Part shown: piece after piece, positions 9,366 through 16,147 of the stretch | Numbering within the stretch: the first letter of the stretch is position 1 | Layout: each line of letters starts with the position of its first letter | Source of the DNA: Geodermatophilus sp. DSM 44513 | GTDB taxonomy: Bacteria; Actinomycetota; Actinomycetes; Mycobacteriales; Geodermatophilaceae | Assembly: GCF_032460525.1 (NCBI RefSeq) | Contig: NZ_CP135963.1 | Coordinates: 1,860,001-1,924,000 of the forward strand | Reading direction: 5' to 3' | DNA length: 64,000 bases | Translations under genes and position numbers: made by a program | Notes under the pieces: model-generated | What the model saw: the letters and a program-made list of their open reading frames with translations, nothing else | Database searches by the model: none | What the model was told of the DNA's origin: nothing

Positions 9366-9968
9366 GTGAGCAGCGAGCCGATCCGGGTCCTCATCGCCGA
9401 GGACGAGGCGCTCATCCGCCTCGACCTCAAGGAGATGCTCGAGGAGGAGGGGTACACCGTGGTGGCCGAGGTCGGCGACGGGCAGCAGGCCGTCGACCGG
9501 GCGACCGAGCTGCGGCCGGACCTGGTCGTCCTGGACATCCAGATGCCCGTGCTCGACGGACTGTCGGCAGCCGAGCAGATCGCGACGGCCCGCATCGCCC
9601 CGGTCATCGTGCTCACCGCGTTCAGCCAGCGGGAGCTGGTCGAGCGCGCCCGCGACGCCGGCGCGATGGCCTACCTGGTGAAGCCGTTCTCCAAGAACGA
9701 CCTGGTGCCGGCGATCGAGGTGGCCCGCGGCCGGTTCGCCGAGCTGGCCGCTCTCGACGGCGAGGTGCGCACGCTGGAGGAGCGGTTGGAGACCCGCAAG
9801 GTCGTCGAGCAGGCCAAGGGCCGGCTGATGAGCGAGCAGGGCCTCACCGAGGCCGAGGCCTTCCGGTGGATCCAGCGGACGGCGATGAACGAGCGCACCT
9901 CGATGAAGGCGCTCGCGCAGCGCATCCTCCAGCCGCAGACGTCCGCGGACCCGGCCGCGGGCGGCTGA
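9366..9968 (+). CDS. pdtaR: ANTAR-domain response regulator (PdtaR)
   Basis: Two-component response regulator that acts on RNA. Receiver domain in residues ~6-125 with acidic pocket EDE (12-14), phosphoacceptor D57 (VVLDIQMP) and K106 (LVKPFS); the C-terminal ANTAR domain (~138-190, VVEQAKGRLMSEQGLTEAEA) binds dual-hexaloop RNA hairpins to cause antitermination. The 200-residue length matches mycobacterial PdtaR, and the neighbourhood (pyk, tesB upstream; polA, rpsA downstream) matches too. Its partner kinase PdtaS is not in this window. Confidence 0.95.
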   Translation: MSSEPIRVLIAEDEALIRLDLKEMLEEEGYTVVAEVGDGQQAVDRATELRPDLVVLDIQMPVLDGLSAAEQIATARIAPVIVLTAFSQRELVERARDAGAMAYLVKPFSKNDLVPAIEVARGRFAELAALDGEVRTLEERLETRKVVEQAKGRLMSEQGLTEAEAFRWIQRTAMNERTSMKALAQRILQPQTSADPAAGG

Positions 9969-10061: not shown

Positions 10062-10130
10062 CCCCCCACTGACCGGCCGCCCGCCCGGGCGGGCCGGCCG
10101 CACGACCGACACCACAGTGGGAGTTCCTCG

Positions 10131-11474
10131 ATGCGCACAGGCATCCTCGCGCGCCACGCCGCGATCTCGGCCGCCGCCCTCCTCGTCCTGACCGCGTGTG
10201 GCGGCGGGGGCGAGGAGGCAGGCACCGCCGCCGAGGACACCGCCGCGAGCACCGGCGGCGGCGAGCGGCAGGTCAACGTCTACGGCACCGACGGCAACAT
10301 GGGCAACGCGCTGGGCGAGTCGTTCACCGAGCCGGGTTCGCTGGCCGGCATGTCGGGCACCACGCCGCTGACCGAGCTGGGCACCGACTTCCAGGACCGG
10401 CTCCTGCAGGTCGACCCGAACCTGCAGGACTACAACTACGCCGGCGAGACCTACGACGCGGTCGTCATCACCGCGCTCGCCGCCCAGGCCGCCGGGACGA
10501 ACGACGCCAACGTCTTCAAGGAGTTCGTCAACGGGATCACCTTCGGCGGCGAGGCCTGCACCGACTACGCCGGCTGCCTGGAGATCATCACCAACGGCGG
10601 GAACGTCGACTACGACGGCATCTCCGGTCCGCTGAGCTTCACCGACGCCGGCGAGCCGGCCGAGGCGAGCTTCGGCATCCTGCAGTTCGGCGAGGACAAC
10701 CAGCTCGACGACTCCCTCACCGAGTACCAGCTGGCCGGTGACGCGGCCAACGCCGCCACCGACGAGGGCCCGGCCTACGCCGCGCCCGGGGCGACCGGCG
10801 AGCAGCTGGTGATCGGCACGCTGCTGCCGCTGACCGGGAACCTGGCCTTCCTCGGCCCGCCGGAGGTGGCCGGCGCCCGGCTGGCCGTGCAGGACATCAA
10901 CGCCGCCGGCGGCGTCCTCGGCCAGGACGTCCGCCTGGTGGAGGGCGACTCGGGCGACGCGTCGACCGACACCGCGACGCAGACGGTCGACCGGCTGCTG
11001 CAGGAGGGCGTGAACGCGATCATCGGCGCGGCGTCCTCGGGCGTGAGCCTCACCGTGATCGACCGGATCACCGGCGCGGGCGTCCTGCAGTTCTCCCCGG
11101 CGAACACCTCCGACCAGTTCACCGACTACAACGACAACGGGCTGTACTTCCGCACCGCCCCGCCGGACACGCTGCAGGCCCGGGCGCTGGCCGACCTGAT
11201 CATCAACGACGGCAACAACACCGTCGGGATCATGGCGCTCAACGACCCGTACGGCACCGGGCTGCTGGACAACACCCGGGAGAACCTGATCTCGGCGGGC
11301 CTGGCGGAGGACAGCATCGTGACGCTGACCTACGACCCGCAGGCGGCCAACTTCGACGCCGAGATCCAGCAGATGGCCGACTTCAACCCCGACGCCATCG
11401 TGGTCATTGGCTTCGAGGAGTCGGCACGGATCATCGAGGGGCTCAACCAGCAGGGCATCGGCCCGCGGCGCTGA
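10131..11474 (+). CDS. Branched-chain amino-acid-type ABC substrate-binding lipoprotein, circularly permuted
   Basis: Lipoprotein with signal peptide and lipobox LTAC (Cys23), a Gly/Glu/Thr-rich linker, then the two halves of a type I periplasmic binding protein (LivJ-like) in swapped order. Residues 47-203 (QVNVYGTDGN to TEYQLAG) are the normal C-terminal part; residues 204-225 are an Ala/Gly/Pro linker; residues 226-447 (LVIGTLLPLTG to QQGIGPRR) are the normal N-terminal part, which in the family directly follows the signal peptide. The protein stops exactly where the family would continue into VNVYGTDGN. Total length (447) and both halves look complete, so this is rearranged, not truncated. 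It probably delivers substrate to LivHMGF encoded opposite; whether it still binds ligand is unknown. An assembly error is possible. Confidence 0.9.
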   Translation: MRTGILARHAAISAAALLVLTACGGGGEEAGTAAEDTAASTGGGERQVNVYGTDGNMGNALGESFTEPGSLAGMSGTTPLTELGTDFQDRLLQVDPNLQDYNYAGETYDAVVITALAAQAAGTNDANVFKEFVNGITFGGEACTDYAGCLEIITNGGNVDYDGISGPLSFTDAGEPAEASFGILQFGEDNQLDDSLTEYQLAGDAANAATDEGPAYAAPGATGEQLVIGTLLPLTGNLAFLGPPEVAGARLAVQDINAAGGVLGQDVRLVEGDSGDASTDTATQTVDRLLQEGVNAIIGAASSGVSLTVIDRITGAGVLQFSPANTSDQFTDYNDNGLYFRTAPPDTLQARALADLIINDGNNTVGIMALNDPYGTGLLDNTRENLISAGLAEDSIVTLTYDPQAANFDAEIQQMADFNPDAIVVIGFEESARIIEGLNQQGIGPRR

Positions 11475-11741: not shown

Positions 11742-12589
<848 letters not shown>

Positions 12590-12593
<4 letters not shown>

Positions 12594-13615
12594 CGCTCGG
12601 TCCTCTCCGGGCCGGTGCCGTCCGCCTGCAGGACGTCCCCGTCGGCGTTCTCCTCGCAGGCGATGGCCGCCTCGGCCTCGGCGAGGACGCGGTCCTCCTC
12701 CTCGACGGTGAGCGGCGCGTCGTGGTGCGCGCCCAGGTAGGCGTCGACGACGGCCTGGTTCTGGCTGACCGACTCCGGCGGACCCTCGGCGATGACCCTG
12801 CCGGCGGCCATGACGACGACCCAGTCGCTGATGTCCCGGACGACGTCCATGTCGTGCTCGACGAAGACGACCGTCATGCCCTCCTCACGGAGGTCCTTGA
12901 CGTGCCCCAGCAGGCTCTGCGTCAGCGCCGGGTTCACCCCGGCCATCGGCTCGTCGAGCATGACGACCTTCGGGTCGCTCATCAGCGCGCGGGCCATCTC
13001 CAGCAGCTTGCGCTGCCCACCGGACAGCGTGCCGGCGAAGTCGTCCCGCTTGCGGTCCAGCTTGAACCGGGTGAGCAGCTCCATCGCCTTCTCGGTGTTG
13101 GACCGCTCCTGGGGGCGCCACGTGCCCGGCACCAGGGCCCGCCAGAAGCTCTCCCCGCGCTGACCCTGGGCGCCGAGCAGCATGTTCTGCAGCACGGTGA
13201 GCCGGGACAGCGCCTTGGTGAGCTGGAAGGTCCGCACGACGCCCAGCCGGGCCACCTGGTGCGGCGCCAGCTTGCCCAGCGGCTGCCCGTCGAAGGTCCA
13301 GGTGCCGGTGTTGGGCTGGTCGAAACCGGTGAGCAGGTTGAACAGCGTCGTCTTCCCGGCTCCGTTCGGCCCGATCAGGCCGGTGATGCCACCCCGCTGG
13401 ACCTCCAGGTGGTCCACCGCCACGGCGGTGAGGCCGCCGAAGGTGCGGGTGACCCCGTCCACCACGATCGCCGGGTCGGGCTTGGCCACCCCGACCTCCC
13501 ACGGGACGTCGCGCAGCGCGGTCTGCGCCAGCCGGCGAGGGGCGCGGTCGGCACCGGGGAGCCCGGGCGACAGCGACGCCGCGTGGGCTCCGGAGGGCTG
13601 ACTGTCAGCGGGCAT
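12590..13615 (-). CDS. livG: Branched-chain amino-acid-type ABC transporter ATPase
   Basis: Second ATPase of the LivHMGF system. 341 residues: variable N-terminal ~45 residues, Walker A GPNGAGKTT, Q-loop region VVRTFQLTKALSRLTV (LivG-type), signature LSGGQRKLLEMARAL, Walker B VVMLDEPMAGVNP, H-loop VEHDM, plus an acidic C-terminal tail of ~50 residues. Overlaps livM by 11 bases and livF by 4, so translation is coupled. Confidence 0.92.
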
Positions 13616-14603
13616 CGAGCATCACCTCTCGTCGGTCACCGAAGATGCCCTGCGGCCGGAAGACCAGCAGCAGCATGAGCCCGAGCCCGATGAGCACGAA
13701 CCGGATCTGCGCGACGTCGGTCGCCGAGAGCAGGCCCTCGGGGATGACCCCGTTGTCGATCAGCGTACGCAGGCCGGTGTCGGCGAACTGGATGATGAAG
13801 TACATCAGCATCGCGCCGACGACCGGGCCGAGCACGCGCGCGGCCCCGCCGAGGATCAGGGCGGCGTAGGCCAGGAAGGTGTTGGCGTTCTGGTACTGGT
13901 CGGGGTTGGCCGACGCGGTGCCGAGGGCGTAGACCATGCCGCCGAGGGCGCCGAGCACCCCACCGAGCACCAGCGCCTGCATCTTGTACAGGTAGACGTT
14001 CTTGCCGAGGGCGCGGACGGCGTCCTCGTCCTCGCGGACGGACTTGACCACCCGACCCCACGGGCTGCGCACCAGCAGCCACACCAGCAGGCAGGACAGG
14101 GCCACGAACGTCCAGCCGACCGCGGTGACCCACAGTTCCCCGCCGCTCCACCGGGTGCCGAGGACCGGGTACTGGCGGGCGGTGTCCCAGGGCGCCAGGG
14201 CGACGAAGTCGCCGTTGAAGCCGGCCAGCCCGCGGGTGCCGTTGGTGACCGGGGTCGCCGACACGGACCGGAACAGCAGCCGCAGGCCCTCCGCGGCGGC
14301 GATGGTGGCGATGGCCAGGTAGTCCGCGCGCAGCCGGAGTGTGGGCAGCCCCAGCAGCAGGGCCAGGACGACGGCGGCACCCAGCCCGACCAGGACGCCG
14401 ACCCAGAACGGCAGCCCCCACTGGCTCACCGAGATGGCGATGCCGTACCCGCCGAGCATGGCGAAGGCGATCTGGCCGAAGTTCAGCAGCCCGGTGTAGC
14501 CGAACTGCACGTTGATGCCGATGGCCAGCAGCGCCAGGAAGATCGCCTGGAAGCCCAGCCCGGCCTTGAGCGCGACGGCCAGGGCGTCGATGAGTTCACC
14601 CAC
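13605..14603 (-). CDS. livM: Branched-chain amino-acid-type ABC transporter permease
   Basis: Inner-membrane permease of the Liv system, 332 residues with about 8-9 hydrophobic segments. Family marks: FGYTGLLNFGQIAFAMLGGYG near the N-terminus, LPTLRLRADYLAIATIAAAEG in the middle, the cytoplasmic coupling loop SPWGRVVKSVREDEDAVRALGKN and a C-terminal LLLVFRPQGIFG. GTG start at 14603, three bases after the livH stop. Confidence 0.92.
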   Translation of the reverse strand: MGELIDALAVALKAGLGFQAIFLALLAIGINVQFGYTGLLNFGQIAFAMLGGYGIAISVSQWGLPFWVGVLVGLGAAVVLALLLGLPTLRLRADYLAIATIAAAEGLRLLFRSVSATPVTNGTRGLAGFNGDFVALAPWDTARQYPVLGTRWSGGELWVTAVGWTFVALSCLLVWLLVRSPWGRVVKSVREDEDAVRALGKNVYLYKMQALVLGGVLGALGGMVYALGTASANPDQYQNANTFLAYAALILGGAARVLGPVVGAMLMYFIIQFADTGLRTLIDNGVIPEGLLSATDVAQIRFVLIGLGLMLLLVFRPQGIFGDRREVMLDAR

Positions 14604-14606
14604 GGC

Positions 14607-15962
14607 TCAGCCCACCCGCACCCGGCTGCCGAGGATGCCCTGCGGCCGCACGATCAGGATGACGATCAGCAGCAGCAGCCCGCCGACGTACTTGACGTCG
14701 TTGGGGATGACCAGCGTCGACATCTGCACGAAGACCCCCACCACGATGCTGCCCACCAGGGCCCCGTAGGCCGTGCCGAGCCCGCCGAGGGTGACCCCGG
14801 CGAACATCAACAGCAGCAGCCGGAAGCCCATGTCCCACTGCACCTCGTCGGACAGCCCGAGCAGGATGCCGCCCAGGGCGGCCAGCGCCCCGCCCATCAT
14901 CCAGACGACCAGGATCACCCGGTTGACGTTGATGCCGGAGGACGCCGCGAGGTCGCGGTTGTCGGCGACCGCGCGCATCGCCTTGCCGATCGTCGTCCGC
15001 TGCAGCATGACCGCGATGAGCAGCAGCACGGCCAGCGCGACGACGATCGAGGCCAGGTCGGTGTCGGTCATCGTGAACGGGCCGTAGTCGACCGCCCGCT
15101 GGCCCCGGTAGTCCGCGTAGGCCTCCGAGCCCCCGCCGAAGATGATCTGGTAGAGGTAGCGCAGCAGCAGCGACAGGCCGATGGAGATGACCAGCGCGGC
15201 GACCAGGCCGGTGCCGCGCCGGCGCAGCGGCCGCCAGATCGCCAGCTCGTTCAGCGCCCCGACGCCGGCGCCGATCACCATGGCCATCAGCGCGGCCGGG
15301 ATCAGCGGCACCCCGCCCTCGACGTTGATGAACCACGCGGCGATGGCCCCGATGGTGACCAGCTCGCCGTGCGCGAAGTTGGTCAACCCGGTGGTGCCGA
15401 AGATCAGTGACAGGCCCACGGCCGCCATGGCGATGAGCAGCCCGAAGCGCAGGCCCTCGACGAGCAACTGCACCCAGCGGACGGTGCCACCGCCGCCCTC
15501 CCGGCTGCCGTCGCTGAGCGCGATGATCACGCCCTGGTTGCGGTTCGCGTCGACGGTGACCGTGCGGTTGTCCTCGCCGGTGAGCACCACGCCCTCGGGC
15601 AGGTCCTCGGCGTCGATGGTGACCGTGTACTGGCCTGGCCCGGGCAGTGGCACCGCCCAGCGGCCCTCGTCGTCGGTCTCCACGGTGTCGACGGCGTCGC
15701 CGTCGGCCGTGGTGACGACCACCTCGACGCCCTCGACCGGGCCGACGACGTTGGTCCGCAGGGTGCCCGACACCTGCTCGGTGGCCGTGGCCGGCTCCGT
15801 CTGGGCCGAGGCGACGCCAGGGACGAGCAGCAGCGCGAGACCCCCGAGGACGCCGAGCAGCAGCAGGCGGAGCAGCACCGGGCCCCCGGCCGCCGGCCGC
15901 CCGGTCCGTGCCCGTCCACCCCGTCCCCCGGGCCCCGGCACACGGTCTGCCGTGTTCGTCAC
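14607..15962 (-). CDS. livH: Branched-chain amino-acid-type ABC permease with N-terminal secreted beta-sandwich domain
   Basis: LivH-type permease preceded by an extra domain. From GTG 15962 (GGAGG just upstream): ~25 basic/Gly-rich residues, a signal-anchor (VLLRLLLLGVLGGLALLLVPGVASAQ), then ~90 residues resembling a carboxypeptidase-regulatory or CnaB-like fold (VSGTLRTN...DEGRWAVPLPGPGQYTVTID), predicted outside the membrane, and finally the permease core with FGTTGLTNFAHGELVT and a C-terminal LIVRPQGILG. About 450 residues against ~300 for plain LivH. The open frame extends to 16070, but the longer N-terminus is unlikely. First gene of the livHMGF operon. Confidence 0.88.
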   Translation of the reverse strand: MTNTADRVPGPGGRGGRARTGRPAAGGPVLLRLLLLGVLGGLALLLVPGVASAQTEPATATEQVSGTLRTNVVGPVEGVEVVVTTADGDAVDTVETDDEGRWAVPLPGPGQYTVTIDAEDLPEGVVLTGEDNRTVTVDANRNQGVIIALSDGSREGGGGTVRWVQLLVEGLRFGLLIAMAAVGLSLIFGTTGLTNFAHGELVTIGAIAAWFINVEGGVPLIPAALMAMVIGAGVGALNELAIWRPLRRRGTGLVAALVISIGLSLLLRYLYQIIFGGGSEAYADYRGQRAVDYGPFTMTDTDLASIVVALAVLLLIAVMLQRTTIGKAMRAVADNRDLAASSGINVNRVILVVWMMGGALAALGGILLGLSDEVQWDMGFRLLLLMFAGVTLGGLGTAYGALVGSIVVGVFVQMSTLVIPNDVKYVGGLLLLIVILIVRPQGILGSRVRVG

Positions 15963-16147
15963 TCCGCCTCCCTGCCTCTGCGCACGAGGGGGGACGGTAG
16001 CCCAGCTCTGTCGCCTGCTGTTCACCTCGCGGCGAGCCGTTACCCGTCCGGGACACGCCGCACCCGTCACACCCGTCCCGAGGCGGCGCGCCGACGTGGC
16101 CGCCGGTGGCGGCGGGTGCAGTCTCGGGTCACCGTCCAGGAGGCCCC

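Follow-up and report, generated by a model that had tools for sequence, protein, structure and literature searches.

How does a gene come to encode the two parts of a familiar binding-protein fold in the wrong order, and how often has this happened? The question is raised by an open reading frame (ORF; positions 10131–11474, forward strand, 447 residues) in a 64,000-nucleotide stretch of Geodermatophilus sp. DSM 44513 (contig NZ_CP135963.1, positions 1,860,001 to 1,924,000), referred to below as the window. An earlier note, made from the letters of the window without database searches, read this ORF as the gene of a LivJ-like substrate-binding protein (SBP) in which residues 47–203 and 226–447, joined by a new 22-residue linker (residues 204–225), had changed places; the reading of the ORF bears out these segments and the linker. 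The window protein is a LivJ/HAAT-type (PF13458) lipoprotein and a natural circular permutant. It is very probable that the reading as a whole is right: proteins of this kind became circular permutants at least four, probably five times by duplication, and the window protein folds into two lobes and is the binding protein of the LivFGMH-type importer encoded opposite it.

The match of the window protein to the Pfam profile PF13458 (123.2 bits, cut-off 31.7) covers residues 227–445, which correspond to positions 3–217 of the 343 in the profile; the start of the family model sits at the end of the protein, with the remainder (residues 47–203) ahead of it. Since the colinear order of the family is not found, the protein was filed as a permuted relative of LivJ/HAAT proteins. 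Unrotated, it matches the LivJ chain 4gnr over residues 226–442 only (E 1.5e-18). Rotated into family order (residues 225–447 followed by 47–204), it matches 4gnr in one stretch, 5–301, that runs across the join (E 4.7e-21), and 3ipc and 3ip5 are also matched in a single stretch crossing the join. These one-stretch matches, with the position in the Pfam profile, place the two halves in swapped order, as had been claimed. The join is clean, GIGPRR/QVNVYGTDGN in the window protein versus GIGPTSGMPVYGTDGN and QIGPGQKLVYGTDGN in the normal-order relatives L188 and L178. Both parts are homologous to one colinear orthologue and no part has evidently been lost, in agreement with the earlier note. A search for a normally ordered paralogue in the same genome, which that note had proposed, returned no close one; the other three matches are 22–29% identical.

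An AlphaFold2 model of the window protein has one confident fold, with a predicted local distance difference test score (pLDDT) of 88 and a predicted template modelling score (pTM) of 0.85; residues 1–43 have a pLDDT below 50. Structural aligners, which are sequential, match LivJ chains over residues 221–447 only and barely probe residues 47–203. According to the model, the protein most likely folds into an ordinary two-lobed fly-trap. The break had been placed near the hinge return into lobe 1, which is only roughly right: the alignment with 4gnr puts it inside lobe 2, in the loop that leads from a helix to the strand after it (E49–52 in the model). The hinge crossover is presumably some 25–30 residues after the break, as in LivJ.

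For the comparison with relatives, the protein was divided into segments N (residues 226–447), V (47–68) and C (69–203). Three orders were found: the normal order N-V-C, the window type V-C-N (permA) and a second permuted type, C-N-V (permB). The V segment is in the middle of normal-order proteins, at the start of permA proteins and at the C-terminus of permB proteins (ends such as VYGTDGNMGNALGE). Among 188 different proteins, 94 are permA, 8 permB and 86 normal. The genome searches for relatives were samples of larger groups, and the lists of taxa hold among the matches listed: permA occurs in Geodermatophilaceae, Micromonosporaceae (family code f16), one genome of family f13 and families f117, f110 and f21; permB occurs in Acidimicrobiia, including Ilumatobacteraceae, and in f30. 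A motif count (n = 361) served as a check only; 21 proteins lacked one of three motifs and eight had an extra match. The signal peptide and lipobox of the earlier note (LTAC, residues 20–23, with Cys23 predicted to be lipidated) were recovered, and the lipobox pattern is present in 93 of the 94 permA proteins.

The window order extends over residues 1–447 in 23 of 24 additional genomes from its genus, with 74–96% identity; the one exception, G020, had no full-length match. Carriers include the single-contig genomes G017, G023 and G024 and the named isolates with this order belong to Geodermatophilus, Blastococcus, Modestobacter and Klenkia; the nearest, G. pulveris, is 96% identical. An error of assembly or annotation as the source of the swapped order is therefore rejected and is next to impossible: nothing in favour of it was found for the window gene, the order recurs across many assemblies, named isolates and single-contig genomes (G024 and G017 among them), and a second set of clades is permuted with another cut. 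Two of the eight proteins with an extra motif match, the short metagenomic relatives P0095 and P0104 (contigs of 1.5–1.6 kb), may be artefacts: in each the extra match is a true internal duplicate, about 50 residues long, of the beginning of the N segment, from either a chimaeric contig or a real partial duplication. Comparison with L005 gave a nonsynonymous rate (dN) of 0.019 and a synonymous rate (dS) of 0.172, and the ratio dN/dS is about 0.26 to 0.40 against four other relatives; such low values fit purifying selection on the coding sequence. As a separate observation, G101, G087, G149 and G280 (family f1) have second permuted copies, 64–69% identical to the window protein, in addition to the copy at the locus; L088 and L092, discussed below, are the two of these whose surroundings were read.

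The permutation is thus not a one-off; Geodermatophilaceae, and other clades as well, have this order as their standard. The earlier note had named a standard order in relatives as grounds for giving up the idea. Such an order is, in a sense, what was found, and the permutation still stands, since sister families carry normal-order orthologues at this locus. In the named loci of Geodermatophilaceae, a response regulator gene is located upstream of the SBP gene in 53/53 cases and a facing livF in 49/53 (the other four end early). Normal-order loci outside f21 have the facing livF in 39/44 cases and the upstream regulator in 25/44. This shared neighbourhood makes the permuted and normal genes syntenic orthologues. 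The normal-order orthologues, which differ from the window gene in having the ancestral order at the same locus, are found in Mycobacteriaceae, Pseudonocardiaceae, Hoyosellaceae and others (L094–L113, L170–L193), the nearest being 55–66% identical in the N part.

Family f21 contains both orders. A match was found in 76 of its 149 genomes, with both parts spanned in ten of the 76; among 30 loci fetched, ten were permuted and 20 normal. The facing livF is present at 10/10 permuted and 9/10 normal loci and the regulator at 7/10 and 9/10, respectively. The permuted and normal orthologues are 60–80% identical within this one family and at the same locus. The normal-order orthologues share the chromosomal position of the permuted ones, so the gene was permuted in situ. 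Sequence, structure prediction, relatives and syntenic normal-order orthologues together uphold the claim of a clean circular permutation in which the lipoprotein export signal was kept.

All sequences were rotated to one order before tree building. The main tree has 109 rows (188 different proteins less 54 Geodermatophilaceae rows gives 134, and 25 near-duplicates or fragments were removed from these); an f21 tree has 53 rows, and trees of the half-proteins have 105 (four more dropped), the latter being quick trees with weaker support. The main tree has five changes between permuted and normal order, all five forced by starred branches, and five permuted clades: Geodermatophilaceae with f13 and Micromonosporaceae; f117 with f110; f21; permB of Acidimicrobiia; and permB of f30. 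In three of these clades the cut precedes the VYGTDGN strand and in two it follows the strand by about 20 residues; the cut-site labels were used for permuted rows only, as those of normal-order rows were often wrong (gap cost too low). A single permuted clade is rejected by 199 log-likelihood units (approximately unbiased (AU) test, p 1.6e-48), and placing all permA proteins in one clade costs 170 units (p 2.5e-55). The ten permuted f21 genes form one clade (96/87) nested in the normal genes of the family. This implies that the order was permuted independently at least four times, probably five. The direction is taken to be from normal to permuted, because the permuted clades nest among normal genes and the solved LivJ proteins have the normal order.

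Tandem normal-order copies occur at the locus in L311 and L312 (regulator, SBP and SBP on one strand, facing livF) and in L179 and L187, unfused; the first copy of L179 and L187 is very divergent (branch of 2.28 in the main tree). These copies suggest permutation by duplication, in which the gene would be duplicated in tandem, the copies fused in frame and the outer parts deleted. Trimming on one side or the other of the V unit would yield the permA or the permB order.

The neighbourhood and the fold indicate that, most likely, the window protein binds substrate for the adjacent LivFGMH-type ATP-binding cassette (ABC) importer, and the predicted ligand is probably an amino acid or amide. The acid of the GTDG motif is invariant in both permuted types, as D54 in the permA alignment A1 (103 of 241 proteins plus L166, giving 104 rows with P0001 as the first) and as D427 in the permB alignment A2 (67 of 120 proteins). 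We assume that the residue of LivJ matching this acid binds the amino group of the ligand; if so, both cuts adjoin the pocket strand and leave it whole. In the permuted protein, the lipid tether would join the fold at lobe 2 and no longer at the ancestral N-terminus. A bolder proposal is that this one orthologous protein, at its conserved locus, is a hot spot of permutation, and that about five parallel events at the two loops flanking the YGTDGN strand–helix unit recurred adaptively because moving the tether from the N-terminus of lobe 1 to lobe 2 alters how the protein approaches the importer or is released from it; this is tentative, and we would sooner doubt it than accept it.

Several observations weigh against the reading given at the outset. 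As to the number of origins, placing all permB proteins in one clade is rejected only weakly (47 units, p 0.042), which allows for four origins in place of five. The grouping of Geodermatophilaceae with Micromonosporaceae is not starred (96/63) and falls apart, unsupported, in the N-half tree, so the number could also be higher. Each half tree needs six changes (three states), only two or three of them forced by starred branches. A single ancient permutation, followed by repeated returns to the normal order or by horizontal transfer of the permuted genes, would draw on the weak rejection of permB monophyly, on the fact that change counts give no direction and on the Micromonosporaceae copies, which lie away from liv genes as a transferred gene might. 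We consider it quite unlikely. The tree is that of the gene itself, and transfer alone would keep the permuted genes together, which is rejected by the 199 units given above; the permuted clades are nested in normal-order groups, and f21 has this nesting inside a single family and at a shared locus; and a return to the exact ancestral order would be the same rare event in reverse.

As to the route, the proteins classified for order included no fused tandem, overlapping or trimmed intermediate. Permutation by duplication and fission–fusion are the standard models for circular permutants (PMC3320104). By the second, the gene would have been split and its parts rejoined in the other order, or the halves would come from different genes. 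This has some appeal, since duplication needs three deletions and a fusion and the fused intermediate was not found; we nevertheless hold it to be improbable. Separate half-genes were not seen beside the examined loci (no systematic search for half-genes was made), whole tandem copies do exist at the locus, and in separate trees the halves share broad relatives for Geodermatophilaceae and L226. In both half trees, Geodermatophilaceae are sister to or beside the Mycobacteriaceae–Pseudonocardiaceae set and L226 is sister to L222, so that a chimaera of two unrelated halves was rejected for these; the f117/f110 pair and Micromonosporaceae shift place between the half trees. Duplication remains the preferred route.

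As to function, none of the 13 Micromonosporaceae permuted loci and neither of the Klenkia-type second copies, L088 and L092, lies beside liv genes, so the importer role is weaker for these copies. The regulator, which carries an ANTAR domain, was not detected at permB loci (0/8); two of the eight, L299 and L300, have a distant facing livF-like match (28%) and liv genes upstream. These loci leave room for a permuted protein that no longer serves the importer and is now a ligand sensor or a cell-surface binding protein. In the AmiC–AmiR pair, a LivJ-like sensor is coupled with an ANTAR protein, and in Geodermatophilaceae the gene next upstream is that of an ANTAR regulator. Such a role is unlikely, given that the Geodermatophilaceae locus has a lipoprotein gene facing a complete livFGMH set, an arrangement kept in permuted and normal forms; service to the importer is preferred for the window protein. 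The Micromonosporaceae loci are L074–L081 and L083–L087; in L078, the neighbours, named by eye, are enoyl-CoA hydratase-like and hydroxyacyl-CoA dehydrogenase-like ORFs.

The features of the gene and its neighbours are listed in the table below. In the window, the genes run in the order gltD and pyk (forward), a thioesterase-like ORF, a decarboxylase-like ORF (reverse), the ANTAR response regulator and the SBP gene (forward), then livF, livG, livM and livH (reverse).

Table. Coordinates in the window of the substrate-binding protein gene parts and of the neighbouring genes
Feature	Position	Strand	Basis and remarks
Shine–Dalgarno-like GGGAG	10119..10123	+	7 bases 5′ of ATG; sequence reading, putative function
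Signal peptide and lipobox, aa 1–23 (LTAC, Cys23)	10131..10199	+	Read from sequence
Tether, unstructured, aa 24–46	10200..10268	+	Sequence and predicted model
V segment, aa 47–68 (QVNVYGTDGNMGNALGESFTEP; given also as VNVYGTDGNMGNALGE)	10269..10334	+	Moved unit
C segment, aa 69–203, C-terminal part of the ancestral order	10335..10739	+	Comparison with relatives, rotated match
New 22-aa linker, aa 204–225, old C end to old N end	10740..10805	+	Sequence; block pLDDT 90–97
N segment, aa 226–447, and stop; ancestral N-terminal part	10806..11474	+	PF13458 profile 3–217 of 343; structural alignment to LivJ-type chains over 221–447
Response regulator with receiver and ANTAR domains, conserved upstream neighbour	9366..9968	+	Domain match; synteny
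livF-type ATPase, convergent to SBP gene	11742..12593	-	Domain match; synteny
livG-type ATPase (ABC_tran, BCA_ABC_TP_C)	12590..13615	-	Domain match
livM-type permease	13605..14603	-	Domain match
livH-type permease with N-terminal CarboxypepD_reg-like domain; true start probably inside ORF	14607..16070	-	Domain match

The N-terminal extracellular CarboxypepD_reg-like domain of LivH (PF13620, residues 99–184, 33.3 bits, cut-off 32.3) might be a docking site. A link between this domain and the permutation was considered and rejected: the part is matched at 74/75 permuted and 47/51 normal loci, so it marks the transporter family and not the permutation. Loss of an extra pair of Cys residues is likewise not a strict mark of permutation. 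After the lipobox Cys, 47 of the 86 normal-order proteins have four Cys and 88 of the 94 permA proteins have two; 35 of the 86 normal-order proteins also have two. By pattern, the extra pair (one in the tether, one in the loop after SDQF) was found in 22 normal-order proteins (e.g. L044, L170 and L188) and in no permuted one. The pair is possibly a tether-to-lobe disulphide.

Among known systems, the nearest are the LivJ/LivK-HAAT binding proteins (PF13458, Peripla_BP_6; 4gnr, 3ipc and 4n0q), which share the sequence family, the predicted fold, the nature of a lipoprotein or exported binding protein and the livFGMH neighbours; they differ in the order of the two parts, and the window protein scores 65 bits with the NCBIfam LivJ subfamily model PRK15404, below its cut-off of 477. 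One precedent was found for a permuted type I binding lipoprotein, TpMglB-2 (Tp0684) of Treponema pallidum and relatives (PMC4990184). According to that paper, it is a member of the sugar-binding (MglB) family and the founder of a ‘Type Ic / Cluster Bc’ class, with an order that is standard in many species; only its first 70–100 residues were moved to the C-terminus, and a fourth crossover arose. The sequence of the permuted part hardly resembles the ancestral one, so the authors also weighed an origin from another gene, and they raised membrane anchoring (PMC4990184). The likeness is that of a natural circular permutant of type I, a lipoprotein whose order is standard across many species. The window protein differs in its family and cut, with 222 residues reordered and both parts recognisable, in having a normal-order orthologue at the same locus and in the recurrence of the event. 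Its best solved relatives are of LivJ type, and none is named MglB among the 60 matches listed. DNA methyltransferases, the saposin/swaposin permutants and others are also cases of one fold naturally permuted, with tandem duplication as the proposed route, and are not transport binding proteins (PMC3320104). Searches of the open-licence literature yielded no account of a LivJ-type protein in permuted order, nor of such an event recurring.

Permuted proteins carry public names of ordinary substrate-binding proteins, and no more than a part of each is matched by curated profiles, so the permuted order lies in a blind spot of annotation, hidden under such names and partial matches. Natural circular permutation is usually inferred from distant pairs of proteins. 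Here, permuted and normal orthologues share one locus at 60–80% identity (f21), and about five origins are apparent, at two cut sites; this amounts to a natural experiment in rearranging a protein that keeps its fold. It makes testable the route of permutation, the reuse of loops and the effect of the tether position on the coupling between binding protein and transporter.
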